From NCBI RefSeq assembly GCF_000046705.1, contig NC_005956.1, forward strand, positions 1,415,001-1,479,000: 64,000 nt of DNA, read 5' to 3'. Of the stretch, positions 7,275 to 43,515 are shown one piece after another (position 1 is the first letter of the stretch; the number at the start of each line of letters is the position of its first letter). Source of the stretch: Bartonella henselae str. Houston-1 (GTDB lineage Bacteria > Pseudomonadota > Alphaproteobacteria > Rhizobiales > Rhizobiaceae). A model generated the notes under the pieces. That model searched no databases. It was not told the origin of the DNA and saw only the letters and a program-made list of their open reading frames with translations. The translations under genes were made by a program, and so were the position numbers.

Positions 7275-8010
7275 GCTACAAGAAATTGATTTATAAAGAT
7301 AATTTATCATTTTGCAACTTGAATGAGAACATTGAATATCATAAGATTCTCTCATCTCAAACCCTCCAAACCCTCTCATAGTGAATCACTCAAAATCATT
7401 CGCCTGCATATCATAAGCGAGGTTGGCGTGTGGATGAAAACTCCTCAAGAAAGGAGTAAAAATACCCTTTATGAACCATCTCAATGAAAGGATTGTTGCA
7501 ACATTTTGAGCTGGAAAAGAGAATGACAGAACCGGCGTGTATCTTCATAAGCATCAAGAGGGTCGTGCTCAATAGATTTCCCGTTATACCCTTAACAGAT
7601 GCCGTCATAATCGTGAAAGGGCTTTTGTGCACTAACGGATATCCCCTTAAAATAAACACGTGAATGAGCAATATTATGGCGTTCTGTTCTTCGTGAAGAG
7701 TGTTACCCTATTAAAGAACGTGAAAAACAAAAACGTGAGACAATACGCAATCTCCATTATTGAAAGGATACTGTTCCTAGATACTCTTAAAAGCCGTAAA
7801 GCTGAATTAAAGAGTGATAGTAAGGCTGGAGGCTGGTTTTTACCTTTACATCCCCAAATGAGGTTATTTCCCTGTTTCAGAGATTACACACAGATACACG
7901 CAATGTTCTTGCCCCTATCTGGCATACAAAAGCTGCAACAAAATGGAAAGCACTTATCTTTCAATCCTTTGTCTCAAACATGCTGCTGCATTAGAATAGG
8001 ATGTTAATTT
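7275..8010 (+). pseudogene. Decayed tyrosine-recombinase (integrase) relic A
   Basis: A degenerate copy of a repeated integrase gene family in this window. It opens with the shared boundary sequence TTGATTTATAAAGATAATTT and then carries, in shifting frames, the amino-terminal arm-binding domain and the start of the core-binding domain. The later part reads SIIERILFLDTLKSRKAEL, SKAGGWFLPLHP and a terminal NPLSQTCCCIRIGC, which aligns (in another frame) with LCLKHAAALELDVNLQ of the other copies. Many stops and frameshifts rule out function, and the catalytic carboxy-terminal domain is missing. Intact relatives are P4-type integrases of genomic islands. Confidence 0.7.
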
Positions 8011-8338
8011 ACAAGTAACAGCCACAAGAAACACCATTTCTATGTTTATGAAATCATACGCCATGACCATCATGTCTTTATCGACCCCAATACATAAACT
8101 CTCGCATTTAAACAGTTTATCAATCGGCCTGTTACATCCATTCCAAAACTGCTTTTCAAGTCACACACTCTTCCATTGAGCTGTCTCCTCGATTGAAATA
8201 TATCATGAAGTAATTTTTAATAATTGAGAATTAAAAATTGAAACAAACCAAAGATTACACAATCAAAGATATCTCATTCAAAATGTGTAGCTCTGATTTA
8301 TATTTTTAAATCAAGAGCTTCATTTTCACAACCAACAA
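8011..8338. other. Gene-free stretch after integrase relic A
   Basis: No supportable gene. A short open stretch on the plus strand (about 8030-8090) reads FYVYEIIRHDHHVFIDPN and may be the end of a decayed gene, but I cannot identify the family. Confidence 0.3.
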
Positions 8339-8361
8339 AAGACTGGGTAATGGCCAGTCTT
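8339..8361 (-). terminator. Terminator hairpin downstream of trhO
   Basis: A perfect 8-base-pair inverted repeat AAGACTGG / CCAGTCTT with a 7-base loop, followed on the minus strand by TTGTTGG. It lies about 90 bases beyond the stop of the rhodanese-domain gene. Confidence 0.55.
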
Positions 8362-8451
8362 ATAAAATACTTGTCTGCTCAAAACGAAATTCTTTTCTTG
8401 AAACAACCGAAAAAAGCAAAATCCTTAAACGCTAAAGTACAATAGCTTGTA

Positions 8452-9366
8452 TCACTCTTGATGAGAATGCATTGCACGCAATTTTGATAATTGGAACTGC
8501 CTATGACGTTCGCGAAAGCGCTCCCTATCATCTTCACTGCGCGTATTATAACAAGCATCACACGAGACACCTTCCTCATAATGAGGCGATAATTTGCTTT
8601 CAGTATTAAGAGGAGAACGACATGCGCGACATAATTCGCGCCCACATTCTTCAAGACCATGTTTAACAGAAACACGTTCATCAAAAACGAAACACTCCCC
8701 CCACCACAGACTATCTTCTTTTGGAATTGTTTCCAAATATTTAAGAATCCCACCTTTTAAATGGTAAACCTGTTCATAACCAAGTTCACGAACATAAGCT
8801 GTTGATTTTTCACACCTAATACCACCTGTACAAAACATAGCAATTTTCTTTTTCTTTTTTAAATCAGCTTCATGCTTAAGCACCCATGCGGGAAATTCAC
8901 GAAATGTTTTGATACGCGGATCAACCGCTCCTTGAAAACTGCCAATTGCATATTCGTAATCATTACGTGTATCAATGAGAAGCGTTTCTTCATCTTGAAT
9001 AAGGGCATTCCAATCTTTAGGGTCCACATAAGTACCAACGGCTTTTAACGGGTTAACACCGTCAACTCCCATTGTCACAATTTCTTTTTTCAATCGTACT
9101 TTCATACGATGAAAAGGCATTTTTGATGCCCATGAATATTTAATCTCAGGCATTTGAAATGCTGGTTCAGCTGTAATAAAATCCACTAATGTCTCAATAG
9201 CAGCACAAGATCCCGCAACAGTTCCATTAATTCCCTCTTGTGCTAAAAGGAGGGTACCTTTGATATCCTTTGCTTGACATAAATCCAGCAAAGGCTTTTG
9301 TAATTGACGGTAATGCTTCAAATCCGCAAAGCAATAAAGAGCAGCAACTTTAAAATTCTTTTCCAT
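8452..9366 (-). CDS. trhO: tRNA uridine(34) hydroxylase, rhodanese-domain protein TrhO
   Basis: Cytoplasmic enzyme of the YceA/UPF0176 family, which hydroxylates uridine at the wobble position of tRNA (5-hydroxyuridine formation) using oxygen. It has 304 residues, the expected size. An amino-terminal ferredoxin-like domain (about 1-95, with [15 protein letters not shown]) precedes a rhodanese domain with the active-site cysteine in [14 protein letters not shown] (about residues 179-192), and a cysteine-rich tail contains CRACRSPL and SCDACYN-like pairs. The tail is the YceA-type extension. The gene stands alone, divergent from eda, with a hairpin terminator downstream. No clear ribosome site precedes the ATG at 9366. 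Confidence 0.92.
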
Positions 9367-9478
9367 AGTTTTGGCATAACGTGGGTTTCATTCAATTTCA
9401 AGACTTATTCATTTACTCTTTAAGATATTGTGCTTAATCAAACTATCCTTACCCATCATTTCTTGGAGAAAAAACACC

Positions 9479-10144: not shown

Positions 10145-10600
10145 GATTCCAGTGCATCATCATTGGCGCCTTCAACAAGACCAAAAGCTTCACACATTCT
10201 TGCACAATCTTTCAGCATTGCCATGGAATTACAAATCATCACAAGGTCCTCATCAGCATGAATTTTCAGCAAACCAGTCATTTCAAAAAAATACCACTCT
10301 CCATAACAATCGTAATGCACCCCATATGCTCAGAAGTTTTCCGAGTCGTCATGGAATAAAATTTCAACTGTAGTGTGTATTCACCAATTAGTGGATCTTC
10401 TCGTAAAGAGATGACAAGATCTTTCGCATAATTAAACTCATCCCATTTACGGGGTGTTTGAATAAGAACGACTTCTGAAAATTTTCATAAATTTCAGGAT
10501 CACGGATAAGACTTGCAAAGGGAGAAACTCCTGTCACTATTGAGAGCAGATAAAGACACATTTCAGAAACAAAAGTGCCAAAAGGATCACTGTCCTTTAG
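10117..10600 (-). pseudogene. Decayed partial copy of ferredoxin-NADP reductase
   Basis: A truncated, mutated tandem copy of the 3' half of the gene at 10636-11466. The frame from 10320 to 10114 reads EMTGLLKIHADEDLVMICNS and then LKDCARMCEAFGLVEGAND, nearly identical to the intact protein's carboxy terminus. Further upstream the similarity continues through frameshifts to about 10560-10600. It has no start or FAD-binding half and cannot give an active enzyme. It overlaps the 3' end of eda. Confidence 0.85.
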
Positions 10601-10635
10601 ATTTTCATGCTTTATAATACAGAGTATCTATCCTC

Positions 10636-11466
10636 TCACCCTACAAAGGCACGCTCCACAACATATGTAGCCGGTGCATTATTGGCACCTTCAACAAGAC
10701 CAAAGACTTCACACATTCTCGCACAATCTTTCAGCATCGCCATGGAACCACAAATCATCACCCGATCTTCATCAGCATGAATCTTCGGCAAACCAGTCAT
10801 TTCAAAAAAAGCGCCACTCTCCATAACAGTCGTAATGCGCCCCATATGCTCAGAAGATTCGCGCGTAGTCATAGGATAAAATTTCAGCTGTGGTGCGTAT
10901 TCACCAATTAGTGGATCTTGTTGTAGAGAGACAACCAAATCTTTTGCATAATTAAGTTCATCGCACTCACGAGTTGTTTGAATAAGAACGACTTCTGAAA
11001 ATTTTTCATAAGTTTCAGGATCACGGATAAGACTTGCAAAGGGAGCAACTCCTGTCCCTGTTGACAAAAGATAAAGGCGTTTTCCAGGAATAAGGGCATC
11101 AAGAACCAGCGTTCCAGTAGATTTTTTACGCATAAGAACGGTATCACCAATTTTAATTTTTTGGAGATGTTCGGTTAATGGCCCTCCTGGAACTTTGATC
11201 GAAAAAAATTCAAGCTGCTCATCCCAAAATGGACTTGCAATCGAATAAGCACGATAAATTGGCTTTTCTGCATTTGGCAAACCAATCATAACAAATTCAC
11301 CAGAACGAAAACGAAAACTTTCAGGACGATTCAAGCGAAATTTAAACAAACGGTCTGTATAGTGATAAACTTCCTGTACAGTAAGCGCGAATACATTTTC
11401 AGGAATAGGAAAATCTGATGCAACGCTGCTGATGTTTGACTGAACATTGCTAGCAGACGTATTCAT
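10636..11466 (-). CDS. fpr: Ferredoxin/flavodoxin-NADP+ reductase
   Basis: FAD enzyme that passes electrons between NADPH and ferredoxin or flavodoxin, supporting oxidative-stress defence and Fe-S cluster work in the cytoplasm. It has 276 residues. The FAD-binding motif is RAYSIASPFW, the NADP-binding loop GTGVAPFASLIRDPET, and the carboxy terminus ends EVFGLVEGANNAPATYVVERAFVG, as in rhizobial FPR of the bacterial type. The first roughly 20 residues are a poorly conserved, serine-rich extension. It lies just downstream of its own decayed partial copy, which points to a tandem duplication. It appears monocistronic. Confidence 0.92.
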   Translation of the reverse strand: MNTSASNVQSNISSVASDFPIPENVFALTVQEVYHYTDRLFKFRLNRPESFRFRSGEFVMIGLPNAEKPIYRAYSIASPFWDEQLEFFSIKVPGGPLTEHLQKIKIGDTVLMRKKSTGTLVLDALIPGKRLYLLSTGTGVAPFASLIRDPETYEKFSEVVLIQTTRECDELNYAKDLVVSLQQDPLIGEYAPQLKFYPMTTRESSEHMGRITTVMESGAFFEMTGLPKIHADEDRVMICGSMAMLKDCARMCEVFGLVEGANNAPATYVVERAFVG

Positions 11467-11550
11467 AAAATTCTTCCCTTATCTTCATTCAACGTTAAAC
11501 CTTCAAAGTGATATAATACGCGCGTCATCATCTGCCAATATTTTTCTTAA

Positions 11551-12150
<600 letters not shown>

Positions 12151-13078: not shown

Positions 13079-13973
13079 TTAGGAACGAGTAACGATCAAA
13101 TCAGCTGCTTTCAACGCATCAGAAATGGTTTGTGCACTCAAATTTTTCCCATTAACAAGAGAAACTTCAGGTGCATGAGGTGAGGCTACTGCTCCAAAAT
13201 TACTTACAGTATTAATGCAAGCATCATCATTACAGGCAGCTTAAACCACATAAGGATCATTGCAATTTCCGTAAGTATAGGTACTTTGCTTAGCCTTGAC
13301 TGTATTATCACCGATAGGAGCTCTAAAGATTGAACTTTGCATACCCATCACAAAAAAAGATAAAAGTTGCCCATCTCCTTGAGAATACTCTTCAACAAAG
13401 CCAAGAGAAGCATAAAATTTGCCAAATGTTTTTGGAACTTCAATAACACCCACAGTTGTTTTTGTACCATCCATTAAATCTGTTATGGTGCCAGTAACTA
13501 AATTTTCCTTTTTTGAAACATCAAATTCATACTGATGCCCCGTCTTCCATGGTATTTTAATACGACATTGCACTCCAGAACCTTCATGATCAAAATAATG
13601 ATACTAATCACTCTTCCAACCAACAGCATTCCAGATAGAGTAATTAACGAAATGATCACCTCCACTGTTTTGTAAACCAATATACCCAACATCACCGTTT
13701 TTAAAGAAAAACTGATTTGCCCAGTAATAATGAGAGTTCATTCCACCATCGTTACTAATCTTCTGGAAAAACGTTAATTGATCTAACCTCTGAATGAGCA
13801 GACCATGCATGTTGAATAAAAATAATACCACCAGCAACAACAGCGTAACTTGCCGAACTCACTAAAAACCAGAAAAAATGAATAATATTTTTGGGATTCT
13901 GTAATTCATCCCCCATTAATTCACTACAGATAAGATTGATTTTATCAGAATTACACTCTATACTTAATATCAT
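13079..13973 (-). pseudogene. Decayed secreted protein resembling the DUF3472 family
   Basis: Three overlapping minus-strand frames join into one protein through frameshifts: a hydrophobic, signal-peptide-like start (IHFFWFLVSSASYAVVAGGI, near 13870), then GMNSHYYWANQFFFKNGDVG, YIGLQNSGGDHFVNYSIWNA, then after a break YHYFDHEGSGVQCRIKIPW, HQYEFDVSKKENLVTGTI and a cysteine-containing tail. An in-frame stop at 13241-13243 is followed by another 50 or so sensible codons (for example NDDACINTVSNFG) to 13079. The Y-I-G-L-Q / S-I-W-N-A pattern recalls the DUF3472 family of secreted or carbohydrate-associated proteins. That assignment is from memory and moderate. At least two frameshifts and one stop make it non-functional. 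Confidence 0.6.
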
Positions 13974-14640
13974 AATGAATATCGCGCAAACTTTAATCCG
14001 CTTTTGTATACTAAATATAGAGTAAGAGTATTGCGTATCTCTGTTTGGGTAATCTCTGAAACAGGTAGACAGCTTAATTTGGAGAGAACATAAAGTTGTA
14101 AAGGTAAAAACCAGTTTCCAGTGTTGTCATCTCCCTTTAAATTCGGCTTTACGACTTTCAAAAGCATCTAAAGCAATATCTTTTAAATCATGGAGAGTAT
14201 TGCTTCACGTTTTTATTTGTCGCGTTCTTTCAAGAGGTCACACCCCTTATGCAAAACAGAACACCATTGGGTTGCCAATTCACGCGCTTTCTTTAAAGAG
14301 ACATCCGTAAGTGCACTTAAGCCCATTTCGCAATCCTGCCCGTGAATAGTATAATACCACCTTTACACTTATGAAGGAGAAAACCTGTACCCATCATACT
14401 ATTTGCCAGCAGCCTCCAATGTTGCTACAGCCCTTGGCACCTGAAATGATCCATAAGGGAGCATTTTGGATCTTTGTCTTTAAACAATTTTATCCACACT
14501 CTAGTCCCGCTTGTAATGTGTAAGCGAATAGTTTTGATTGATTCAACATCAACAAGATTGGCATAAGAAAATCTTACGGTATTAGGGCCTCTCATTCAAT
14601 ATAAAAACAATGAATTGTCCTTATAATCAATATGATGAGC
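13970..14640 (-). pseudogene. Decayed integrase relic B
   Basis: Minus-strand copy of the repeated integrase gene. It begins near 14640 with the shared boundary region and runs down to the core-binding segment, where the frame 14167-13970 reads LLKVVKPNLKGDDNTGNWFL and then LPVSEITQTEIRNTL. In the intact family this stretch follows the helix ending ESRKAELKG. The catalytic domain is absent, since the secreted-protein relic abuts at 13973. Multiple stops are present. Confidence 0.72.
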
Positions 14641-16418: not shown

Positions 16419-16442
16419 TTTTTCATTAATGTAAAAAAAACT

Positions 16443-19612: not shown

Positions 19613-19619
19613 AAAAAAA

Positions 19620-20774: not shown

Positions 20775-20970
20775 GTTCGTCTCTGCACCCCTCTGTTACA
20801 AACCTGAGAGACTCGCGAAAAAAGTTTTCGCTTACACCTTCGGCGCGGCCCCTCCCGACTTTCCAGATCTGCCTCTCTTCTTTTACGGTCCTTAGAGCCT
20901 GAGAGATTACGGGCTATTTTCCCCTTCGGCGGCAGACCCAAAAACTTGCAGCCTGCACTCTCCCGCAAAA
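20775..20970 (-). promoter_or_regulatory. Tandem glycine riboswitch (gcvT element)
   Basis: On the minus strand two aptamers follow one another. The first begins GCGGGAGAGTGCAGGC (near 20966) and contains GCCGCCGAAGGGG and AATCTCTCAGG; the second contains GCGCCGAAGGTGTAAGCG and GAGTCTCTCAGG. The repeated GCCGAAGG and CTCTCAGG boxes are the conserved cores of the glycine aptamer. A short linker joins them, as in cooperative glycine switches. It lies directly before gcvT, where high glycine would turn on the cleavage operon. Confidence 0.93.
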
Positions 20971-21478
20971 GAATGAAAGAAATAATAACGTTCTTTCCGA
21001 CATATTTAAAGTCTATAGCTCATCTCTGTCACACTGTCATCAGCAAAATGACTAGTGTGCCCTCATTTTACACTTGCATAGGTTGTTTTAAAAAGCTTAT
21101 AATATTAGATCTCGAGCATTCTAAAAATCGTAGGTGTTTACAGTTTAGTAAAATAAGGAGGATCAGCTTATATATTACCGGCATGAGCTACCAACATAAA
21201 AAGGAAATTGCGAAAGGCCAAAAGCAAAAATACCAATCAAAAACTAAAAAAACAAATTGAAAACAATGTAAAATTTGACAGACTAAAAAGAGTGTTCTCT
21301 CTTGTATGGTCTCATTATAACCACAAAGTTTATTCTCTCTAACACTACATATTCTAAGAGTATCAGGAAATATGATCTTAACACTCAAGGGGGTTGGTCT
21401 TTCTTATGGATAGGTAGTACCATAAACTGTGGCTCCTTATGCACCAAACCTCACCATACAAAGGGTTCAAAAATACGA
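20971..21478. other. Intergenic region between gcv operon and Lon-domain gene
   Basis: Divergent spacer. It must hold the promoter for the glycine riboswitch transcript and one for the gene at 21479, but I see no clear -35/-10 pair. A frame from 21302 runs in phase into the next gene but has no homology to the family. Confidence 0.35.
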
Positions 21479-24839: not shown

Positions 24840-25610
24840 AAAACATTGATTTATAATAATAAATAATCATTTTTCAACTTGAATCAGAATCCCAAATATC
24901 GTAAAATCCTCTCATAATCAATTAATTAAAATACTTGCTTGCATGTCATAAGCGGAGCTGGCGTGTGGATAAAAAAATACTTAAAGAAAAGCGTAAAAAC
25001 GCTTTTCATGAACTGCCTTAATGCAAGAGCTGTCAGCAACATTTTGAGCTGATAAAGAAGGAGAATGGTGCCAGCTTGCACGCTCAATAAGCATAAAAAT
25101 GGTGATACCCAATGCCTTCCATTATATCCTTCATGAACAGTGTCATGAAATAGGCTTTTGTGCATTAACAGATGTCTCTCTAAAACAAGCGCGTGAATGT
25201 CCAACACAATAGCGTTTTGTTTTGCATGAGGAACGTGCCCCCTATTAAGAATGTGAGAAATATAAAGCGTGAAGCAATGCTTAGCCTCCATTATTGAAAA
25301 GATATTACTCTAGATACTTTTGAAAGCCGTAAAGCCAAATTAAAGGTAGAAGATAAAGATGAAAACAGCTTTTGACCTTTACAACTTCATATTCTCCCCA
25401 AATGAGGCTATCTATCCGTTTTAGAGATTACCTAAACAAAAATACACAATACTCTTCACTTTGGCATACAAAAGCTGCAACAGCAGAGAACGCCCTTACC
25501 CGTCTCAATCTTTGTCTCAAACATGCTGTTGCGCTAAGTTTAGACGTTGATTTACAGGCGAAAGCAAAAGCACGCGCTTTATTATTCATGACACAATCGT
25601 TATAAAATGC
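24840..25610 (+). pseudogene. Decayed integrase relic C
   Basis: Plus-strand copy starting with the shared boundary (ACATTGATTTATAATAATAA) and reaching the core-binding domain. The 3' part is the clearest: FRDYLNKNTQYSSLWHTKAA, TAENALTRLNLCLKHAVAL and SLDVDLQAKAKARALL (25430-25590), matching tyrosine recombinases of genomic islands. The part before it has stops and frame changes, and the catalytic R-H-R-Y domain is missing. It lies 300 bases upstream of asd. Confidence 0.78.
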
Positions 25611-25904: not shown

Positions 25905-26921
25905 ATGAGCTTTAAAGTTGCAGTTGTCGGAGCAACCGGAAATGTTGGTCGTGAAATGCTTACAATTCTTGAAGAACGTGGTTTTCCTACTCATGAAATT
26001 GTTCCTTTAGCATCACGCCGCTCTCTAGGGCAAAGCGTTTCCTATGGTGACAAAACTTTAAAAGTCAAAGCGCTTGATACATACGATTTTTCCGATACGG
26101 ACCTCTGCCTCATGTCTGCTGGAGGAAGTATTTCTAAAGAATATGCCCCTAAAATCGCTGCTGCTGGCTGTGTGGTAATCGACAACTCATCCACTTGGCG
26201 CTATGATAGCAATATTCCGTTGATTGTACCTGAAGTCAATGCACAAGCCATTGATCAATTTTCCAAGCGCAATATTATAGCCAACCCCAATTGTTCAACA
26301 ATTCAACTTGTCTTAGCTTTAAAACCTCTCCATGAGGCAGCGTGCATTAAACGTGTTGTTGTGTCTACTTACCAATCGGTTTCTGGAGCGGGTAAAGAAG
26401 GGATGGATGAACTCTTTGAACAATCACGAGCAGTTTTTGTTGCAGATCCAATCACATCAAAAAAATTTACCAAACGCATTGCCTTCAACATTATTCCCCA
26501 TATCGATGTCTTCATGGAAGATGGGTATACAAAAGAAGAATGGAAAATGGCCGTTGAGACAAAGAAGATTCTTGATCCTAAGATCAAATTAACAGCCACA
26601 GCTGTTCGGGTTCCTGTCTTTATTGGTCATGCGGAAGCTGTTCATGTTGAATTTGAAAAACCACTAAGCGCCCATGAAGCACAAACACTTCTACGCGATG
26701 CACCAGGCTGTCAGCTTATCGATAAACACAAAGATGGCGGCTATATAACCCCTTATGAAAGTACTGGCGAAGATGCCACCTTTATTAGCCGTGTTCGTGA
26801 AGACATCACCGTTGAAAATGGCTTAGCTTTCTGGGTTGTGGCTGACAATTTAAGAAAGGGAGCAGCATTGAACGCAGTTCAAATCGCTGAATTACTCATC
26901 TCTCGTAATTTGATAAAGTAG
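25905..26921 (+). CDS. asd: Aspartate-semialdehyde dehydrogenase
   Basis: NADPH-dependent reduction of aspartyl phosphate to aspartate semialdehyde, the branch point to lysine/diaminopimelate, threonine and methionine; cytoplasmic, 338 residues. Coenzyme motif GATGNVGREML at the amino terminus, the catalytic cysteine in NPNCSTIQLV (near residue 130), the substrate segment SYQSVSGAGKEG and the histidine-containing VFIGHAEAVHVEFE. All features are normal. The 3' end is duplicated immediately downstream, so the locus has undergone recent duplication. It stands alone. Confidence 0.95.
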   Translation: MSFKVAVVGATGNVGREMLTILEERGFPTHEIVPLASRRSLGQSVSYGDKTLKVKALDTYDFSDTDLCLMSAGGSISKEYAPKIAAAGCVVIDNSSTWRYDSNIPLIVPEVNAQAIDQFSKRNIIANPNCSTIQLVLALKPLHEAACIKRVVVSTYQSVSGAGKEGMDELFEQSRAVFVADPITSKKFTKRIAFNIIPHIDVFMEDGYTKEEWKMAVETKKILDPKIKLTATAVRVPVFIGHAEAVHVEFEKPLSAHEAQTLLRDAPGCQLIDKHKDGGYITPYESTGEDATFISRVREDITVENGLAFWVVADNLRKGAALNAVQIAELLISRNLIK

Positions 26922-26944
26922 GAATCAGCAAAATAAATAAAAAG
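26690..26944 (+). repeat. Direct repeat, copy 1 (asd 3' end)
   Basis: The last roughly 230 bases of asd and a little following sequence recur almost unchanged 277 bases downstream (26967-27221). Only a few substitutions separate the copies, so the event is young compared with the other relics here. Confidence 0.9.
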
Positions 26945-26966
26945 GACAATACGAAGCAAAAACGTT

Positions 26967-27221
26967 TTTACGCAACGCACCAAGCTGTCAGCTTATCGAT
27001 AAACACAAAAATGGCGGCACTATAACCCCTTATGAAAGTACTGGCGAAGATGCCACCTTTATTAGCCGTGTTCGTGAAGACATCACCGTTGAAAATGGCT
27101 TAGCTTTCTGGGTTGTGGCTGACAATTTAAGAAAGGGAGCAGCATTGAACGCAGTTCAAATCGCTGAATTACTCATCTCTCGTAATTTGATAAAGTAGGA
27201 ATCAGCAAAATAAATAAAAAC
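26967..27221 (+). pseudogene. Duplicated 3' fragment of asd
   Basis: Second copy of the asd 3' end, starting near CGCAACGCACCAAGCTGTCA and ending after the duplicated stop codon region at about 27221. It has no start and cannot give an enzyme. It carries few changes (for example AAATGGCGGCACTATAACC where asd has AGATGGCGGCTATATAACC). Confidence 0.9.
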
Positions 27222-27299
27222 GGCAGCATGAAACAAAAATGCCTTATGCTGCTGTATTTCCTTCCGATCATCGCAATAACCATGGGATTTTCCATATCC

Positions 27300-30333: not shown

Positions 30334-30985
30334 TGTTCTCTCTTATGAACTCCCCCAAGCCGTTTTCGATACAGTATTGATGACGATAAGCGCTTCTTTA
30401 ATGGCACTTATTATAGGTCTTCCACTTGGTCTGCTTCTTTATACAACTGCACGTGGAGGAATTCTTGCCTCATATCTCATCAATCGCCCTCTGAGTATCA
30501 TGATTGATAGTATTCGTGCCATTCCCTTTATTATTCTCGCATTTTATCTTCTCCCTCTTACCCGTATAGTTGTAGGAAGAGGTGTAGGAATGTCTTCGGT
30601 GATTTTTGTTCTCACCATTTCAGCTATTCCTTTTTATGCACGAATGGCAGAACTCTCTTTTAAAACTGTCGAAAATGGCTTGATTGAAGCTGCGCGTTCC
30701 ATGGGAGCAAGTCGACTTCAAATTATCAGGCATGTTCTTGTCCCTGAAGCGCTCCCTAGTCTGATTAACGGTTTTACTGTTATGGTAATTTCTCTTATCG
30801 GAGCCACTTCACTTGCTGGATATCTCGGCGGAGGTGGTTTGGGAGATATGGCAATCCGCTATGGCTATCAGCGTTATAATACCTCCATTATGACAATAGT
30901 TATTATCCTTTTAATCATTCTAAATGTTATTACCCAATGGTCTTCCGATAAAATTGTACAAAAACTAGATAAAAAAAAGCATTAA
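30326..30985 (+). CDS. metI: Methionine ABC transporter permease
   Basis: Inner-membrane permease, 219 residues, with about five helices. The EAA loop that contacts MetN reads GLIEAARSMGASRLQIIRHV (about 122-141). The start ATG lies within the end of metN. Downstream, a decayed copy of the last two thirds of this gene follows, split by a recombinase relic. Confidence 0.94.
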   Translation: MFNVLSYELPQAVFDTVLMTISASLMALIIGLPLGLLLYTTARGGILASYLINRPLSIMIDSIRAIPFIILAFYLLPLTRIVVGRGVGMSSVIFVLTISAIPFYARMAELSFKTVENGLIEAARSMGASRLQIIRHVLVPEALPSLINGFTVMVISLIGATSLAGYLGGGGLGDMAIRYGYQRYNTSIMTIVIILLIILNVITQWSSDKIVQKLDKKKH

Positions 30986-31025
30986 AGTAATTGAGGAATT
31001 TGTATATTTCTCACCAACCATAGCA

Positions 31026-31322
31026 ACTTCCTTTCTTGGTCTTGCATTTTATTTTCTCCCCTTATCTCTATGGTTGTAGAAAGAGATGTGGAAATACTTT
31101 AAGTGATTGTTATCCTTACTATTTCAGCCATTTCTTTTTATGAAAGCATAATAGAACTCTCTGTTAAAACTTTCGAGAATGGCTTGATTGAAGCTACGCA
31201 TCCATGGGAGAAAATCGACTTCAAATTATTAAACATGCTTTTCAGACATGTTCTCGTCCCTGAAACGTTCCTTCTATTCTAATTACCGGTTTTACTGTTA
31301 TGGTGGCTTCTTTTATGAATCT
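31026..31322 (+). pseudogene. Ghost of metI, first part
   Basis: Degenerate copy of metI nucleotides corresponding to intact positions about 30532-30800. Readable pieces include TVENGLIEA-like codons (CGAGAATGGCTTGATTGAAG) and TTACCGGTTTTACTGTTATG, with stops and small indels throughout. It breaks off at about 31322, where integrase relic D begins, and resumes at 32716. Confidence 0.85.
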
Positions 31323-32715
31323 TATAGAGAATAAATAAAAGAGAGAGAAAATTATCCAAAGATAATGGGGAACTTCACCCCATATCTTAGCTTTGACCTG
31401 TGACATAAGAAGCCCATTTTTCCATAAAGACATAGTGCTGTTCTAAATAGTCTGTACAATGAAGCACGTTCTCCTTTATCCCCCACCACATGCCCCAAAA
31501 TAATCTCTGCTACCTCATAAGGGACATCTGTTATTTTAGCTAGCCAATTACATAAATCAGAACGAAAGCCATGAGAATATGCCACCAAGATCAATCTGTT
31601 GCATGAATTGTGACAGGCAATTCGCAGCAAAGGGACCACACCCGGTTGCAGCAAAAAAAGAAATCATTGCGAAATAAAAAAAATGTGCTTGTTCCGGAGT
31701 TTTTAAAACCTCTGATGATAAAGGTAAGTAAAACTCTGTTATAGCATCACGCCTTCCTTTCATAGTCTCAACAGCAATTGCCCAATTATAGCACCGTCAA
31801 TCTGCTTTTTATGAATATGACGCAAAAGGTTTGTACGCGCCCCCAACTGGAAGGATAAGAAGACACAAAGCCAGTTGTAGTTATGCTTGTTATTTTGCAA
31901 AATATTTTATAAAAAGCCAGAATATCTTTCTAATCCATAGCGGGCATGTTCTTAACTTTATGACGTTGTTTTCTCAATAAAGTTTTTGCTCTTACTTGTA
32001 AATTAACATCCAATTCTAATGCAGCTGCATGTTTGAGACAAAGGATTGAAAAATAAGTGCTTTCCATTTTGTTGCAGCTTTTGTCTGCCAGATAGGGACA
32101 AGAACATTGCGTAATCTCTGAAATAGGGAAACAGCCTCCTTTGGGCATAATATGAAGTTGTAAATATAGAAATCAACTCCCAGCCTTATCATCACCCTTT
32201 AATTCGGCTTTACAGCTTTCAAGAGTATCTAGGAGCAGTATCTTTTCAATAATGGAGATTGCGCATTGTCTCACGCTTTTGTTTCTCACTTTCTTTAATA
32301 GGATTACGCTCCTCATGCAAAACAGAACATCATTGTGTTGCCCATTTACGCCTTTGTTTTAAAGAGATATCCGTCAGCGCACACAAACCCATTTTACGAT
32401 GGCATCCGTGAAGGATATACCGTAAAAGCTATTGGGCACCACCCTCTTTATGCTTATGAAGCTACACGTCAGCTCCGTCATTCTCTTTGCAAGCGCAAAA
32501 TGCTTCGAGAACTCTTGCATTGAGACGGTTCATAAGGTGTATTTTTACTCTTTTCCCAAAGAGTTATTCACCCACACACCAATCCCGCTTATAATGTGCA
32601 TGCGAATGATTTTGAGTGACTCACGATGAGACAGTTTGAGATGCAATAACTTACGATATTCGGTGCTCTCATTCAAGTTAAAAATGATAAATTATCTTTA
32701 TAAATCAATGTCTTT
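31323..32715 (-). pseudogene. Decayed integrase relic D (longest copy, inserted in the metI ghost)
   Basis: The most complete relic: about 1.39 kb, near the length of a full island integrase gene. The minus strand reads from the shared boundary at 32711 through the arm-binding domain, the core-binding domain (CLKHAAALELDVNLQVRAKT near 32030) and LSSEVLKTPEQAHFFYFAM to the catalytic domain with HGFRSDLCNWLAK (active-site arginine), TDVPYEVAEIILGHVVGDKG (active-site histidine) and GERASLYRLFRTALCLYGKM near 31430. Frame breaks and stops prevent function. It is framed on both sides by metI-ghost sequence. Confidence 0.85.
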
Positions 32716-32915
32716 CTCTTAATCATAGCCACATCACTTGCTGGAATCTAAGCGGAGAAGATTGGGGGAATATGGCGATCTGCCATGACTAGCAGCGTTA
32801 TAATATCTCCATTATGACAATAGTTATATCCTTTTGATCACTCTTCATATTATTCCCTTAAGGGTCTTCTGAAACAATTGCACAAAAAGTGGATAAAACA
32901 CAACATTAAAACAAT
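32716..32915 (+). pseudogene. Ghost of metI, second part
   Basis: Continues the copy of metI: AGCCACATCACTTGCTGGAA (intact AGCCACTTCACTTGCTGGAT) and CAGCGTTATAATATCTCCAT (intact CAGCGTTATAATACCTCCAT), then a tail matching the sequence that follows intact metI. It joins directly onto the 3' end of the MaoC-type gene. It has frameshifts and stops. Confidence 0.85.
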
Positions 32916-33395
32916 TTAAGAATTTATGTACTTCTCTCCAACCATAGCAACCACAAGCCACTGGGCAGTAAGAGCTGGTTTTTTTAATTGTTCAATTTCC
33001 ATCGTAGCTCCATAATGAAAAACCACCCGTCCAGAAGGACGAATCTCGGCATCATTTAAAACAAAACGCGCACGTACCCTTGTGCCTGTTTTAACGGGAC
33101 TCATAAAGCGTACTTTATCAAAACCATAATTAATGCCCATTGTTGTACCTTCCAACTCCGGTAGTGCCTCATAAGCTAGCGTAGACAAAAGTGATAATGT
33201 TAAAAACCCATGAGCAATAGTGCCACCGAAATGCGTTTTTTTAGCCTTTTCCTCATCTACGTGGATCCATTGATGATCATCTGTTGCGCATGCAAATTGA
33301 TTAATCATATCCTGCGTAACAAGACGCCACCGCGATAATCCTATTTCTTTCCCAATAAAATTAGCTACATCTTGTACTGCTATTTTTTGTTGCAT
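32916..33395 (-). CDS. MaoC-family (R)-enoyl-CoA hydratase-like protein
   Basis: Hot-dog fold protein of 159 residues with the hydratase 2 motif: ATDDHQWIHVDEEKAKK (aspartate-histidine catalytic pair near residues 37-43) and HFGGTIAHGFLTLSLLSTLA. Similar to rhizobial NodN/MaoC dehydratases, which hydrate enoyl thioesters; the true substrate here is unknown. A purine-rich AGGAAAAGG ribosome site precedes the ATG. It is convergent with the metI ghost and divergent from the oxidoreductase gene at 33563, and stands alone. Confidence 0.86.
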   Translation of the reverse strand: MQQKIAVQDVANFIGKEIGLSRWRLVTQDMINQFACATDDHQWIHVDEEKAKKTHFGGTIAHGFLTLSLLSTLAYEALPELEGTTMGINYGFDKVRFMSPVKTGTRVRARFVLNDAEIRPSGRVVFHYGATMEIEQLKKPALTAQWLVVAMVGEKYINS

Positions 33396-34900: not shown

Positions 34901-34914
34901 GCAAAATCTTCTTA

Positions 34915-35645
34915 TCTTTATAAATCAAAACATTGACTGATAAGAACAATTCATCATTTTTCCTCTTGAAATCAGAACATCAAAGAGCAAAAATCTTTGC
35001 CATTTGATCCCTCTGGTTCAAAATGATAAAACTATTTGCAAAAGAACTCAAGACATCCCTTACAGACCGTCTCAAGACAAGAACAAACAGACACATTGGA
35101 AAGATGCTCACGTAACTTCATAAGCGCAAAGGTGGGCTACCCAAAAGTTCCCGCTTTATATTCTTCACAGTTGTCACCAAAAGAATAAGATTGAAAGCAA
35201 AATAAAATAGTTCTCTTAAGAAAAGTCATAAAAGTCCAAGCCTGCACCATCATTCTCTTTGCCAATTCCAAATATTACAACAACCATTGCATTGAGACGG
35301 TTCATGAGAAGCATTTTTACTTCTTTCTTTAAACCTTTGTATCCATCCACACACCAAACCCCGCTTGTGACGTGTAAACGAATAATTTTGATTGATTCAC
35401 TATAAAAAAATTTGAAATGAGAGAATCTTACGATATTCGGTGCTCTCATTCAAATTGCAAAAAGATTAATTATCATTATAAATCAATATCTTGTCTGAAC
35501 AATTCAATGGCGCATTCTTTTTCATGACGTCCATAATTGCCTTAAAAGAATACCACAAAGAAAGCTGTGAGAAACTGCACAATTTCTAGGATTTTAAACA
35601 GTACCCTCGATGCTTTTGCAAGCCATAAAGCTAAACTTTAAAAGA
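34915..35645 (+). pseudogene. Decayed integrase relic E (plus-strand, interrupted)
   Basis: Two separated pieces of a plus-strand integrase copy: 34915-35190 (boundary, then CGTCTCAAGACAAG and CTTCATAAGCGCAAAGGTGG, matching the amino-terminal domain) and about 35500-35645 (near the helix, reading LNSTLDAFASHKAKL). Between them lies a copy in the opposite orientation, so one relic appears to have been inserted into or recombined with another. Very decayed; confidence in exact ends is low. Confidence 0.6.
35215..35485 (-). pseudogene. Inverted integrase relic inside relic E
   Basis: Minus-strand piece beginning at the shared boundary near 35480 and carrying the amino-terminal segment (minus frame 35449-35216 starts MRAPNIVRFSHF, as in relic G). 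It ends near 35215 where the plus-strand relic resumes. Confidence 0.65.
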
Positions 35646-36470: not shown

Positions 36471-37759
36471 ATTTATTCATCAATGATAGAAATTACAAAT
36501 AATTAACACATGCATCAGAAAGAGTCTTGCTTTAAAGAGTACTGTAAGACAGCTTATATGAAATTCACATTATCATAGATAATAATATTGGTAAAAAAGT
36601 TAATCATAAACCAAATGCGTTATTATAGATTTAAGCATACATTACTAAGAATCATACCTAAAAAAATTAAATTCTATTGCTAATCTGTAGCGCATTAACA
36701 TCAGAGAAAGCTTTACAAAGCTCTCTTTTATCACAAGAAGTAATGATACACTTATCAAACGATTTTAAATGCAAATGAAGAATTAAAGAACAACATAATT
36801 TTCCTCTTTTCCTTAATATCAAAAGAATCTATTCCTTTTAGAAAATCATAAATTGACTTACAAATCTCATTAAGCATTCTTCATATTCAATTAAATCAGA
36901 CAATACAGAAAGTTTTTCTCATTTTAACCTCTCTGATTTAAATTTATAAAAAAATTTGTTGGCTTACACATTACAAAAGGAAGTAATGTGGCGTGGAAGA
37001 CAGCTTAAGAAATGAATTAAGACTTATCTTACAATTTTTTTAAATACAAAAGCAGTATAATATTAAAAACTGTCAATATAATAATAGCGCTTTTCTGCTA
37101 TTTCACTTGTCTGTTATTTCATCAGCATAAACTGGAATGCTGCTTAGTGAGTTTTTAATTCTATCACTCATAGTCAAAACTGAGAAATGAAATTGCTAGC
37201 AAGTAAAGACCATCACACTAAAGCAAATCCATATCCATGAAAAACATCAACAATGGCCTACTATTCTTCCGCAAAACAGCAATAAACTATAAAAGAAAAA
37301 TCAAGATCTCTATTTTCAAACAAAAAAGACATCAACTGAATGGTTTTAAACTTTCATCGATACATATCGAACAAACATCCTGTAATAACTTCAGTAAGGT
37401 CATCCAGCCAAATACTCTTACTTGATATAACATAAACCGCTTAAGAGATTGGCTTTCAAAAATAACAAAATTTACCAATAAAATAAGGAGATTAATCAGA
37501 TTTATAATAACACCATGAGAAACATTAAAGTGCTAGGCAAACGGCTTGCAACTGAAAAAAAGAGCATCATAAAAAATGAGATAATCCCCCAAAATGCTGA
37601 AAAGAAATTTTTTGCTTAACTTTCACAAAAGTTAAGCCCTCCTTCTCTTCAATAGTGCAGATCATAAGCATATCGATTATTTCAGTAGCTCTATTTTCCC
37701 ATGGAGCGATACTAAACATTTCCTTTAGAAAGAGCTCTTTCACAATCTTTGCATGAATC
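36471..37759. other. Gene-poor AT-rich region
   Basis: About 1.3 kb. No family is recognised. An open frame at 37237-37425 is lysine-rich and lacks support. An inverted repeat GCTTAACTTT / AAAGTTAAGC (37614-37637) is present next to a T-run. A minus-strand stretch near 37640-37760 reads FSIAPWENRATEIIDMLMIC, a plausible decayed protein segment I could not assign. Confidence 0.35.
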
Positions 37760-38549: not shown

Positions 38550-38945
38550 AGATATTGATTTATAAAGATAATTTATCGTTTTTTTAACTTGAATAAAAAT
38601 TCAAACTATTGTAAGGTTCTTTCATTTAACCTTCTCTCATAGTAAATCACTCAAAATCCTTCATTTGCATATCACAAGCGTGGTTCGCGTGTAGGTAAAG
38701 ACTCTCCAAGAAAGAAGTAAAAATGTCCCTTATGAAGTGTCTCAAATAGCAAGGATTTTCGGCAACATTTTGAATTGACGAAAAGAATGATGTTATCATC
38801 TCGCACGCTTAATAAGCTTAAAGATGGAGATACCCAATAATTTACCATTATATCCTTCACGGACTCTGTCGTGAAAGTGGCTTTTGTGCACTAACAAATA
38901 TTTCTAAAGCAAGCACGTGAATATGCAAAAATTGCACCATACAAT
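38550..38945 (+). pseudogene. Decayed integrase relic F
   Basis: Plus-strand partial copy beginning ATATTGATTTATAAAGATAA and matching relics A and G through the amino-terminal arm domain (AACATTTTGAATTGACG, then CCTTCACGGACTCTGTCGTG). It stops near 38945, so core-binding and catalytic parts are missing. Many stops. Confidence 0.7.
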
Positions 38946-39715
38946 AATGCAAAACATCTATGCTTTTAGTCCCCATCTTAAACCCCATTTTAATCATTGT
39001 ATCAGCTGTTCAAAGGTGTTTGCTCCTCATCGCGTTATGAGCACATCAAGCTCTCTCCAATTACGCGACTCCATCTGATAAAGGTTCTATGCATTACCTT
39101 ACAATCATTTTTCCTCACAAACACCAAAATCTGTTAATACACTACATAAAATTGGCAAAAGTAAAATTGCTCAACAAACCTTTCTATCCTTTTGTCACAT
39201 TTATACAATTGCCTTAGTAAAGGGAACAGGAACCTTGATTAAAAACAAAATCTGTATCACCCTAGTCTTTGCAGCAATCTGCTTCTTTTCTTCAAATACT
39301 TCAACAAAAATACTTTAAGTATTCTCTCCATAGAACAAAAAGAAAAATATTTGCACTTTCATCTAAACTTGAGTTTTTAAGAGACAAATGAGAAAAATTT
39401 ATTTTTTAAGCTATAATCTAGAGTATTTTTAGTAACCTTGAATGCTCACTTTACAAAAACAAAAGCATTCATTCAAAAAGTCTCACAAAAACAGCTACTC
39501 TTTGAATATTTCAAATTATATCAAAAATTGAAGTGATTTTTTTAAAGAATGTTTCCACTCTTTTTGACAAAGCTTTCCTTATCCATTACATAGATATTTC
39601 CTCCCTAGTCTATCGCATAGATATTTGATGTGAAAATGCTTTTATTTGCGTTTCTCTGTCATATAGATTAAAATCGATAAAGGGGACTCCACCATCTTTA
39701 TCCATTCAGCATCTT
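38946..39715. other. Intergenic region upstream of the creatininase-family gene
   Basis: About 770 bases without a supportable gene. The open frame of the next gene extends upstream to about 39660 without an ATG. Confidence 0.35.
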
Positions 39716-40480: not shown

Positions 40481-40495
40481 TAAAAAGGCGCAACC

Positions 40496-41524
40496 ATGGA
40501 AAAGACGCAAAATACGCCCAATAAACTTCCTGTTACAGTTCTTACAGGATATCTTGGCTCAGGAAAAACCACTCTTCTCAATCGCATTCTCAGTGAAAAC
40601 CACGGCAAACGTTATGCAGTCATTGTCAATGAATTTGGTGAAATTGGCATTGATAATGACCTTATCGTTGAATCAGATGAAGAAATTTATGAAATGAATA
40701 ATGGCTGTGTTTGCTGTACCGTACGCGGCGATCTTATTCGCATTCTAGAAAGTCTGATGCGACGCTCTCACCGATTTGATGCTATCATTATAGAAACAAC
40801 AGGGCTTGCTGATCCGGTTCCTGTTGCACAAACTTTTTTTATGGATGATACGGTGAATACAAAAACAGCTCTCGACAGTGTCATAGCAGTCGTTGATGCA
40901 AAGCATCTTTCACTCCAACTTAAAAAAAGCCGAGAAGCTGAAGAGCAAATTGCCTTCGCTGATATCATTCTTTTAAATAAGATTGATCTTGTAAGTGTAA
41001 AAGAACGTGCACAGGCTGAATCACTCATTCTGGCAATTAATCCACGAGCTGTGATTTATGCAACAGAGCGTACGAACATCCCTCTTGATAAACTCCTCGA
41101 TCGTGGTTCATTTGACCTCCAACGTGTTTTAGAGAATGATCACCATTTTCTTGATCACCAGCATTTCGACCATGTATGTGGTCCCGATTGCAATCATGAT
41201 CATACACATCATCATACATCTGTCCTTCATGATATTACGATAACTTCTGTAAGTTTAAAAACAGGTGCCCTTCAACCAGAAAAGTTTTTTCCATGGATCC
41301 AACAAATTACTCAGCAAAAAGGTCCTGATATTTTGCGTTTAAAGGGGATTATCGCCTTTCAAGGAGATGATGATCGTTATGTTATTCAAGGCATACACAT
41401 GATCCTGGAAGGACAACACCAACGTCCATGGCGTGAAGATGAAAAACGTGAAAGCCGACTTGTTTTTATTGGCCGCACTCTTGATGCTAAACAGCTTAAG
41501 ACTGGTTTTGAAAATTGTGCATAA
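40496..41524 (+). CDS. CobW/ZNG-type GTPase metal chaperone (G3E family)
   Basis: Cytoplasmic GTPase of 342 residues that probably delivers zinc (or cobalt) to client proteins. Walker [16 protein letters not shown], the metal-binding [11 protein letters not shown] (C-x-C-C), Walker-B-like [23 protein letters not shown] specificity loop, and a histidine-rich stretch ([20 protein letters not shown], then HTHHHT) before the CobW carboxy-terminal domain. Its gene lies between the creatininase-type and WD40 genes. In many alphaproteobacteria members of this subgroup are repressed by Zur, whose likely gene is at 307, but I saw no operator here. Confidence 0.9.
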
Positions 41525-41534
41525 GGGAGTAACA

Positions 41535-42506
41535 ATGCCAAGCATTACCAATTACGATCTCCAAAGTTATTGCCTTTCCTGCGGTTTTATGGACAACAAA
41601 CCTGTTTTCGTTTCAGTTGAAGGTTTTATTGTTTTTTTTAACTCTCCTCCCCAAACCATTGAAATTCACCGAGGAATAATTTCTAGCCATTTTTCTTATG
41701 ATAACACTGCTCTCATTACAGGTGGAGAAGATGGAAAAGTTTGCCAAACAACAGCAGATGGTCATACACAAGTGCTAAGCAAACAAGAACGCAAATGGAT
41801 AAGCAATGTGGCTTTCGGACCACAAAAAGTTTGTGCCTTTGCCTCTTCACGCATAGCATGGGCAAACACCAACCAAGGATTCCAAGAGCTTGTTCATGAA
41901 CGTAGTGTAGAAGGTCTTGCTTTCGCTCGCAAAGGTTTACGACTTGCCGTTGCTCATTACAATGGTGTTACCTTGCATTGGTTATCAACGCAAACATCTC
42001 CCACCACATTAGTATGGAAAGGAGCGCATTGTGGTGTCACTTTTTCACCAGACAACCGCTATGTCATTTCTACTATGCAAGAGAACGCTCTCCATGGTTG
42101 GCGTCTCACAGATCATCAGCATTTACGCATGAGTGGCTACCCAAGCAAAGTCAAAAGTTGGTCCTGGAGCCAAAAAGGAAAATGGTTAGCAACATCAGGT
42201 GCATCAGCAGCAATTGTGTGGCCATTTCATACAAAAGATGGCCCCATGGGGAAAGCACCATTGGAACTTGGCACACGATCAAATGTACTTGTCAGCAGCG
42301 TCGCATGCCACCCAAGCGAAGAAATTGTAGCAATAGGCTTCAATGATGGAATGATTTTGTGCGCACATTTTCGCGATGGAAAAGAAGCCCTTCTAAAAGG
42401 TTATGGAAAAAGCGCTATCTCAGCGCTAAATTGGGATCAAAAAGGACACAACCTAGCCTTTGGGAGTGAAAATGGTGAATGTGGTATTATAAACATCACA
42501 GCTTAA
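41535..42506 (+). CDS. WD40-repeat protein linked to CobW
   Basis: Predicted beta-propeller, 323 residues from the ATG at 41535; GGGAG is seven bases upstream. The in-frame extension to 41433 overlaps the CobW gene and is rejected. Several WD-like blades are visible, for example FSYDNTALITGGEDGKVCQT, FARKGLRLAVAHYNGVTLHW, FSPDNRYVISTMQENALHGW and WSQKGKWLATSGASAAIVWP. No catalytic domain. A WD40 gene just after the CobW GTPase is a recurring rhizobial arrangement, so the proteins probably work together, for example as a scaffold for metal delivery; the exact role is unknown. Confidence 0.88.
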   Translation: MPSITNYDLQSYCLSCGFMDNKPVFVSVEGFIVFFNSPPQTIEIHRGIISSHFSYDNTALITGGEDGKVCQTTADGHTQVLSKQERKWISNVAFGPQKVCAFASSRIAWANTNQGFQELVHERSVEGLAFARKGLRLAVAHYNGVTLHWLSTQTSPTTLVWKGAHCGVTFSPDNRYVISTMQENALHGWRLTDHQHLRMSGYPSKVKSWSWSQKGKWLATSGASAAIVWPFHTKDGPMGKAPLELGTRSNVLVSSVACHPSEEIVAIGFNDGMILCAHFRDGKEALLKGYGKSAISALNWDQKGHNLAFGSENGECGIINITA

Positions 42507-43074
42507 GAAAAGCATTAGCAATAACAATCGTCGCAGATAAAAATGATCACTCAATCCTCCAAAGATGATGAAACAGAAAAACCTCCTTCTTCTCTCAAAA
42601 AAAATCAAACACCTCAAAAAAGAAAAAACCTTTAAAGTGTCTAAGCTATTGACCTTTTAACAGTGCTGTTTTGCCCTCTACCTAGATGAAAGAATCCCCC
42701 TTCAAAAGACCATAAAATAACATCACAACCCTATACAAACCTGTGGCATGCTACAAACCTTCATAAAAAGCACTTCTCCTTAAAACTTCCGAAAAAAACG
42801 TCTTACCCTTACCATTGGTAATATCCATACGCAAAATATCAGAAGAATGAAATTCAAAATTGTTTCTTAAATTTTTTTAGTGGTTTAAAAAAAATCTGAT
42901 CATACTTGAAAAAACTGAATCAAAAACGGCGTAAAACCGTTTTCGCAAAAAGCTCTCGAACCAACAAAATGCTATTTTAAACATAATTCTTGTTTTATAA
43001 AAAACTCTAGCATCTACTTTTTTAAGCTTTCTAATTATTCCCTCTTTCTCTTTTCTGCATTCTCATTGAGAATG
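42507..43074. other. Gene-poor stretch
   Basis: About 570 bases without a gene I can support. Confidence 0.4.
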
Positions 43075-43515
43075 ATAAAACATTGATTTATAATGATAAA
43101 TCATCTTTTTGCAACTTGAATGAGAGCCCCAAATATCGTAAGATTCTCTCATCTCAATCCCTCTTATAGTGAATCACTCAAAACCCTTCACTTGTACATC
43201 AAAAGCGAGGATGAGCGTATGGATAAAAAAACACCTCAAGAAAGGAGTAAAAACGCTTCTCATGAACCGTCTCAATGCAAAGGCTGTTGCAACATTTTGA
43301 GCTGGGAGAATGAGGGTGCCAACTTGCACCTTCATAAGAGTAAAGAAAGAAGTGCACAATGGCTTTACCGTTACACCCTTCACGAACGCCATTGTAAAAG
43401 AGGCTTTTGTGCACTGACGGATGTCTCTTTAAAAACAAGGGCGTGAATGTGCACCACAATGGCGTGTTTGCTTTGTGTAATGAGCGTGAGCCTATTAAAA
43501 AACTTAAGAAGCACT
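43075..43515 (+). pseudogene. Decayed integrase relic G (best-preserved amino-terminal part)
   Basis: Plus-strand copy with the shared boundary ACATTGATTTATAATGATAA at its left end. An open frame of 108 codons (43120-43446) reads NILSWENEGANLHLHKSKER then SAQWLYRYTLHERHCKRGFC and ALTDVSLKTRA, the arm-binding (DUF4102-like) domain of P4-type integrases. The frame ends where others continue, and no core-binding or catalytic domain follows. Not a functional recombinase. Confidence 0.75.

Follow-up and report, generated by a model that had tools for sequence, protein, structure and literature searches.

Left-end stubs of an integrative island family scattered through the genome of Bartonella henselae

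Genomic islands of the P4/SGI type (SGI, Salmonella genomic island) carry tyrosine integrases with an Arm-DNA-bind_3 domain together with an AlpA-like factor and a primase, and conjugative transposons of the Tn916/Tn1549 and CTnDOT types combine a tyrosine recombinase with relaxed targets and short, variable end-target segments. Products with one fixed end, one variable end and short target repeats are known from one-ended Tn3 and IS91-type events and from the 5'-truncated copies of long interspersed nuclear elements (LINEs). Scattered "phage integrase" pseudogenes are usually read as the remains of separate lost prophages. Here we describe a 64,000-nucleotide stretch of the genome of Bartonella henselae str. 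Houston-1 (hereafter the window; it covers 1415001-1479000 of a genome assembled as a single contig of 1,931,047 bp) with seven decayed integrase copies, relics A to G, which are left-end stubs of a family of integrative islands of ~14-16 kb.

The Bartonella islands resemble P4/SGI-type islands in the domain architecture of their integrase, in the position of the integrase gene at the island end, in Toprim/DUF3987 primase-like neighbours and in an HTH_17 gene, below the Pfam cut-off, beside a relic of the B. henselae genome. They differ from them in the absence of tRNA 3' ends (0/77), in the use of dozens of unrelated sites and in their one-ended stubs. Like Tn916/CTnDOT-type elements they use many unrelated targets with a short consensus only, but no conjugation genes were seen in the scanned open reading frames (ORFs), and direct repeats lie on both sides of 12 of 17 islands; we know of no accumulation of truncated left ends for Tn916/Tn1549/CTnDOT-type elements. 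In contrast to the one-ended products of Tn3 and IS91 and to LINEs, the enzyme of the fixed end is a tyrosine recombinase. Miniature inverted-repeat transposable elements are resembled by a single copy (L246) with both ends in less than 450 bp, whereas the common stubs keep one end only. We take the recombinase family and the P4-like island layout to be of known kinds; what is new is that such an island has relaxed targets and, more strikingly still, that it leaves one-ended fossils at 28 per Mb. Islands described from Bartonella are likewise repeated, 10-28 kb long and integrase-flanked; a Type ISP restriction enzyme and beta-solenoid genes make up the cargo of those annotated here. In the available parts of the literature searched (including PMC2697382 and PMC3610622) the integrase-stub family is undescribed; the 2004 B. 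henselae genome paper lies outside that search, and an earlier mention is possible.

The relics are left-end stubs of an island family

The seven relics lie on both strands of the window and form one family with pairwise matches of 71-94%, as the initial annotation, made from the letters alone, had proposed. Counted from the first base of ATTGATT, their left ends are found at window positions 7285+, 14631-, 24845+, 32709-, 35487-, 38554+ and 43082+. Relic A (7285..8031, plus strand) is a left-end stub with ~737 bp of homology in an inserted piece of ~748 bp, and the direct repeat (T/C)ACAAGAA flanks both of its junctions. The other left-end stubs are relic B (13972..14631, minus strand; ~632 bp of homology), relic C (24845..25587, plus; ~740 bp), the short relic E (35228..35487, minus; ~250 bp), relic F (38554..38928, plus; ~375 bp) and relic G (43082..43513, plus; ~430 bp), the last with orthologs in the relatives G049, with a nearly identical end (427), and G048 (274). 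Relic D (31317..32709, minus) is a near-complete integrase pseudogene of ~1.39 kb that extends ~70-80 bp beyond the stop codon position and sits inside one copy of a ~500-bp tandem duplication (window 30526-31316 and 32713-32951). It is the only relic of the window to retain SHGFR and ILGHVVGDK, as first described. The further protein segments said to be common to all copies are more restricted, as WLYRYTLHE can be read in G, and A, C and D show segments of the type LCLKHAxAL..DVxLQ; the remaining relics were cut earlier or are too decayed to read.

The conserved left terminus TTGATTTATAA (window 7286..7296, plus strand) appears in full-length copies as NYAASRY directly followed by ATTGATTTATAATGATAAT. 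That all relics share this boundary holds at the level of extended homology, but the boundary of relic B has diverged to ATTGATTATAA. Taken alone, the boundary 11-mer is weak evidence (11 matches at one mismatch or fewer versus 6.1 expected), and it is the extended homology that counts; exact TTGATTTATAA words at 34918 and 47991 have no family sequence behind them and are chance matches. The copies lie where they had been placed, except that relic E begins at 35.49 kb and not at 34.9 kb. A possible eighth left-end fragment at window 36847-37085 is very weak, with 66% identity to the boundary repeat and 61-64% to the left ends of relatives.

The boundary is the left terminus of the ~14-16-kb islands found in other Bartonella. 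Intact relatives begin their elements at this position, in agreement with the earlier suggestion of a possible attachment site, and carry open integrase genes of 388 amino acids, which in the loci L050, L078 and L090 start ~168 bp after the boundary. An open stop-to-stop frame of 389-431 codons lies near the boundary in 20 of the 29 best-matching fetched loci. The assignment to P4-type tyrosine integrases is borne out by L050 and L090, in which Arm-DNA-bind_3 (PF13356), Phage_int_M (PF22022) and Phage_integrase (PF00589) all score above cut-off. Both proteins read HGFRSSLRDW...YRRTDY, of which relic D keeps a part in a broken frame, and we take HGFR, H and Y to be catalytic motifs of these integrases and of relic D. 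None of the five PF00589 matches of the B. henselae genome is an open copy of the stub family, one of them (a 211-amino-acid frame) being a relic at 1012786+. An intact integrase elsewhere in this genome (372 kb) is 52% identical and could in principle act on the stubs.

Full-length copies, defined as at least 1150 of 1430 bases aligned and counted by alignment rather than by individually checked open frames, number 77 in our set. They are preceded by 73 distinct upstream 15-mers, with strong information only at -8 to -1, where the consensus NYAASRY (last 7-8 bases) precedes the near-invariant ATTGATTTATAATGATAAT. At least 49 of their flanks are dissimilar after near-duplicates, N-containing flanks and flanks that were too short had been dropped. 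The idea that the boundary might be a tRNA 3' end found no support, as no tRNA was found within 100 bp of any of the full-length copies, some of which sit close to contig ends. Among 51 scanned loci of the B. henselae genome, tRNAs occur only in L009, a locus without a left-end copy, and no Rfam family reaches gathering score over the boundaries in window 6600-44200, where three matches fall elsewhere.

Complete islands define the other end. In G036 and G050 the integrase forms the left end, and a conserved right end ...ATTGTGTTTTT is followed by ~20 bases and then by unrelated DNA. Strict right-end recognition with ends 12-19 kb apart gave 17 paired island ends spanning 14.1-15.9 kb. Of the 17, 12 have, immediately left of the 6-8-nt core, an exact word of 5 bp or more that recurs 14-27 bases past the right-end T-run, whereas shuffling gave 1.2 on average and never more than 7 in 2000 rounds; the other 5 have no exact word of 5. 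These repeats measure 5 to 8 bp (the search was limited to 8) and appear longer by eye in B1183. With a looser right-end pattern, which picked up a false site within the islands near 10 kb, the count was 5 of 31 versus 2.8 expected. The island recombinase has a relaxed target choice, given the variety of unrelated sites that the islands occupy and the short direct repeats at 12 of 17 paired ends. The same short repeats, and island ends that by eye resemble imperfect inverted repeats, would also suit a DDE-type transposon with a passenger integrase, the repeats then being transposase target-site duplications. We regard this as very improbable: no DDE transposase was found among the ORFs of at least 150 amino acids scanned in one island (L078), the repeat length appears to vary instead of being fixed, and the recombinase at the conserved end is a tyrosine integrase (in every full-length copy, by the way in which copies were found).

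Two live islands were annotated. The one in L090 (631-15419) encodes a DUF3987 protein, a Type ISP restriction-modification enzyme, called Type IIG by PADLOC, and YdcK-type beta-solenoid proteins. The one in L078 (1526-17065), whose integrase ORF was identified through its copy L050, has Toprim/DUF7146 and DUF3987 genes, a Type ISP enzyme (1654-1659 amino acids in the two islands) and YdcK-type beta-solenoid genes, the latter being variable in both islands. No conjugation genes were recognised among the scanned ORFs of these two ~15-kb islands. Because their cargo is a Type ISP/IIG restriction-modification enzyme, these two islands are apparently mobile phage-defence units of Bartonella. In B. 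henselae, a small and presumably AlpA-like HTH_17 gene (22 bits against a cut-off of 27) and a Toprim gene still follow the relic at 1012786+, which lacks a left end. On a 23,343-bp contig of G050 (C1, locus L247, ~5.9-6.4 kb), probably a plasmid, two island right ends lie in inverted orientation.

The family extends far beyond the window. Relic D as DNA query gave 48 genome-wide matches including 41 separate left ends, most of which start at query base 1-5 and stop at many different bases; a 220-bp left-end query from an island of another species found at least 41 places (best 40 of 95 candidates scored). The union of both queries is at least 55 left ends in 1.93 Mb (25 on the plus strand, 30 on the minus strand), or 28 per Mb, and local BLAST of fetched stretches returned 45 left-end rows, 4 of them outside the 55, for a total of 59. 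The seven left ends of the window form the densest 36-kb stretch of the genome, and the Poisson probability of 1e-4 for a preset interval overstates the surprise, as this stretch is also the genome maximum. By DNA, at least 45 of 61 Bartonella genomes (our own included) contain matches, some of them weak (~6 candidates scored per genome), and the best 80 of 237 relatives in a protein search of named genomes are all in Bartonella. Of the two origins initially offered, repeated island arrivals are supported; local amplification is not, given this genome-wide and genus-wide distribution. The window relics also differ in insertion time, A and D occurring in G048 and B not. Segmental duplication as the source of the copies was ruled out, as flanks diverge from the boundary outwards.

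Right ends are far scarcer than left ends. A 647-bp right-end query found 4 places in the B. henselae genome (all 40 candidates scored), versus at least 55 left ends or at least 41 with the matched 220-bp left-end control; matches down to 139 bp were recovered, so that short right stubs are detectable. In two genomes with live islands, G050 and G046, a 700-bp left-end query matched at least 50 and at least 47 places (best 40 of 224 and of 163 candidates), with at least 38 of 50 and at least 38 of 47 starting within the first 10 query bases; right-end matches numbered at least 13 and at least 8 (best 40 of 42 and of 44 candidates). When 18 longer left-end places of these two genomes were followed for 8-18 kb, six proved to be complete islands. 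In six of the other 12, island similarity stops at 0.7-1.3 kb; in four it stops at 1.8 kb, where a shared integrase module gives way to other DNA; in one it extends to 10.7 kb, and one is indeterminate.

Empty sites, right breakpoints and the origin of the stubs

We compared the left ends with syntenic stretches of seven relatives (27 left ends in total). For relics A to D, the inserted piece equals the stub and the target is not lost. Relic A is empty in G052 with a gap of +1 bp, and in G034 the gap is 59 with the left alignment ending 55 bp before the boundary; as it is present in G048, it is older than that split. Relic B is empty without target loss in G048 (overlap 10) and in G049, and shows a gap of 7 in G058, where the left alignment stops short. 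For relic C the site is empty in G048 (10 bp overlap) and G052. Relic D is present in G048 at 77% and its site is empty in G049, G052, G034, G058, G016 and G044 with overlaps of 1-19, some of these "empty" references being its own duplicated neighbour segment. Relic C is common to G000 and G049 with the same right junction (L109; L103) and cleanly absent from G048, which by gcvP is the closer relative (93% versus 90% for G049). Since the closer relative lacks relic C and the more distant one has it, its absence from G048 needs a precise loss or allele replacement. The shared non-coding boundary had been called unusual for independent insertions, yet it is expected once recognised as the end of the element; what is unusual is the almost constant lack of a right end and the fact that the stub stands alone in its target wherever the empty site is well read.

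The stubs almost always break off within the integrase gene. Among the 45 left-end copies of the B. henselae genome seen by local BLAST, 44 stop before the position of the integrase stop codon (element base ~1332) and only relic D passes it; one of the 44 (1051122+) is accompanied by a second piece extending to the 3' end. The 220-bp query added 14 copies, of which 13 break off at 179-370; the last can be followed to 918, where its fetched stretch ends. In a set of 79 non-redundant stubs from several genomes, which were chosen to end before 1300 and partly picked as short matches, breakpoints range from 66 to 1116 and concentrate near 246, 356, 367 and 417. In a tree built from 112 copies, breakpoint classes do not cluster clearly: class 355 needs 7 of 8 changes, class 367 5 of 6 and class 418, the largest with 14 rows, 12 of 14, with 70, 50 and 44 of 500 shuffles as low, respectively, and the bootstrap not settled. 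As these classes are not clades, the same break seems to arise repeatedly at preferred internal sites. One amplified mini-element per breakpoint class is unsupported, the classes being scattered on the tree.

Tests on words at the right junctions gave differing results. In 68 stubs (the 79 less 11 composite, contig-end or N-containing copies), a 4-7-bp word immediately upstream of the core recurs at the right junction with p ≤0.033 in 16 of 16 settings (best <0.001), and a control offset gave p ≥0.70 in 4 of 4. For 5-mers in a subset of 32 stubs, p was 0.003 and 0.001 (core 7 and 6/7), rising to 0.34 in the least favourable setting. A test on 59 stubs detected a core-like motif, in forward orientation, in the right flank (p 0.008).

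We propose, with a probability of about 0.5, that an integrase of relaxed specificity inserts the left end while an internal site takes the place of the right end. When bound to the left end, this enzyme would sometimes use a nearby internal sequence, mostly within its own gene, as a substitute. In favour of this reading stand the excess of left over right ends, the open integrase genes behind an identical boundary, the short consensus at that sharp boundary, the direct repeats of paired islands, the clean insertions of relics A to D, the breaks ahead of the integrase stop, the word that recurs at the right junction and the recurrent breakpoints outside clades. The true right end, ~15 kb away, would thereby be bypassed and a small piece consisting of the left end and the 5' part of the integrase gene inserted alone, either as a mini-circle or through one-ended insertion. 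As the integrase gene would be cut in the act, the product would be dead in cis and stay as a fossil. In B. henselae, where no intact family copy was found, only stubs would be left, decaying and occasionally recombining by gene conversion and at tail-to-tail junctions. Expected by-products exist and fit this mechanism: at least 9 matches in the genus lack a left end yet reach the 3' end of the integrase gene (counted by eye), and the mini-element L246 (G046:C1:1334554-1334942) combines a left and a right island end in a match of 389 bp and, to the eye, is bracketed by the 8-bp direct repeat AACCTTTG. Put more sharply, a phage-type tyrosine integrase might carry out one-ended insertion of its left end plus a random-looking stretch of its own gene with short target repeats, a formulation that we advance only tentatively. 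On this tentative view, such insertion would seed genomes of the genus with dozens of left-anchored, right-truncated fossils, an outcome like that of eukaryotic LINEs with their 5'-truncated copies, while the enzyme would inactivate itself with each product.

The same final structure, including target repeats and an intact target, would result if full islands had once occupied each site and the right target repeat had recombined with a similar word in the integrase gene, so that an integrase-mediated or short-repeat deletion removed cargo and right end and left the left stub. We consider such in-situ collapse, the main rival reading, rather unlikely. In its favour, and equally in favour of direct insertion, the left flanks of the ~418 class (10 stubs) and of the ~355 class (8) resemble the integrase word at the break more than do those of other stubs (p 0.0079 and 0.021), a resemblance that is partly base composition, as all stub flanks differ from full-length ones. 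Full-length copies and stubs also pair at orthologous left flanks (L074/L160/L218 and L148/L149/L161; L007/L076 is paired too, the G049 copy being merely longer), and L160 is an island with an internal deletion that begins in the integrase gene; low-stringency left-flank matches between L160 and stubs of B. henselae were judged spurious. However, the mirror event should leave right stubs equally often, against the 55-to-4 ratio in the B. henselae genome (both numbers as given above, the first a lower bound) and the left-heavy counts in G050 (at least 38 versus at least 13) and G046 (at least 38 versus at least 8). Many remnants of 2-14 kb should exist as well, yet 57 of the 59 left-end copies of our genome end before the integrase stop, the two exceptions being relic D and one copy cut by its stretch. 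Moreover, both full/stub sites with complete copies are tail-to-tail pairs, and the second flank of L161 lies elsewhere in G061. Because collapse predicts right stubs and long remnants, which are rare, direct insertion is favoured; the orthologous full/stub pairs argue for some collapse, and both processes may occur.

Plain neutral decay, in which islands insert repeatedly and random deletions leave integrase fragments by chance, agrees with the heavy decay and differing ages of the copies, with the ordinary look of some internal deletions, such as the microhomology at tail-to-tail junctions (for example L161), and with gaps in some empty-site comparisons outside relics A to D. It sits poorly with an exact left end retained in at least 55 copies whose right ends are nearly absent, with clean right junctions at the target in relics A to D and with recurrent breakpoints that are not clades. 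In addition, 8 matching pieces begin within the element, and no fewer than 4 of them are parts of copies with a left end. Decay by itself thus appears improbable as the source of the stubs.

Several observations weigh against direct insertion. Beyond relics A to D the empty-site alignments are poorer, with gaps of 55 (G034) and 74 (G049, near A) and an overlap of 16 (G058), as well as gaps of 15 and 36 (the relic C ortholog of G049) and 7 (the relic E ortholog of G048) in poor alignments. A core-like motif in the integrase gene at the break (59 stubs, p 0.09-0.49), an 8-mer abutting the boundary (59 stubs, p 0.47-0.59) and a longest-common-word test (p 0.15) were all null, and a general integrase-word test gave p 0.038 with all 79 stubs but p 0.61 when restricted to the 27 in the best state of preservation. 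The left excess is smaller, 3- to 5-fold (lower bounds), in the live-island genomes G050 and G046. Two stub sites, both tail-to-tail, hold full-length copies in other species, which fits in-situ collapse. No stub was seen to move, and a recent dispersal of dead copies, considered for the three near-identical stubs described below, was dropped, two of their three sites being already occupied in G048.

Composite copies, probable gene conversion and neighbouring features

Tail-to-tail pairs occur in the B. henselae genome at 1903958+/1905472- and 1837577+/1838740- and elsewhere as L161 and L206. The two flanks of L161 are far apart in G061 (~260 kb if its contig C2 is the contig of L148), so that this pair joins two sites. 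In L179, L182, L207 and L221, head-to-head left ends are separated by ~40 bp at a single orthologous site shared by several genomes; these pairs represent one target used twice in opposite orientations.

Three stubs of the B. henselae genome (56589-57539, 68735-69726 and 1903958-1905074; L013, L011 and L048) are 98.8-99.6% identical over ~965-995 bp and share eight in-register stops, and their right ends differ; together they lie within ~97 kb spanning the sequence start. At the 57-kb site, G048 has a stub (81%, without the first ~145 bases) and G049 is empty by coordinates. The 1904-kb site is occupied in both relatives, in G048 by a stub that matches the 57-kb copy at 79% and in G049 by one at 81%, flanks included. 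As the orthologous sites of two of the three stubs are already occupied in G048, gene conversion among dead copies at their present sites most likely made the three alike.

The window has several further features. A 277-bp direct duplication (95%) lies at the 3' end of a semialdehyde dehydrogenase gene (window 26676-27229) and a ~520-bp tandem duplication (84-90%) in and beside a FAD/NAD oxidoreductase gene (10158-11093). Two autotransporter-type ORFs at 44272-54090 share stretches of 77-85% similarity; the larger, of 2008 amino acids, has a beta-domain and an autochaperone, with 126-bp tandem repeats at 51022-51777. Rfam matches comprise a speF leader and the small RNA ar45 upstream of a decarboxylase gene (6708-7014) and a glycine riboswitch upstream of the glycine cleavage genes (20876-20975).

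Implications for Bartonella genomes

One element type, which has a defined end and a target preference and survives as a complete island in sister species, accounts for at least 55 integrase pseudogenes of one small genome. If the stubs insert alone, tyrosine recombinases would have a one-ended mode for which, to our knowledge, tests are not made, and integrase remnants would overstate the number of past island arrivals. Gene conversion and rearrangement also find dispersed homology in the stubs.

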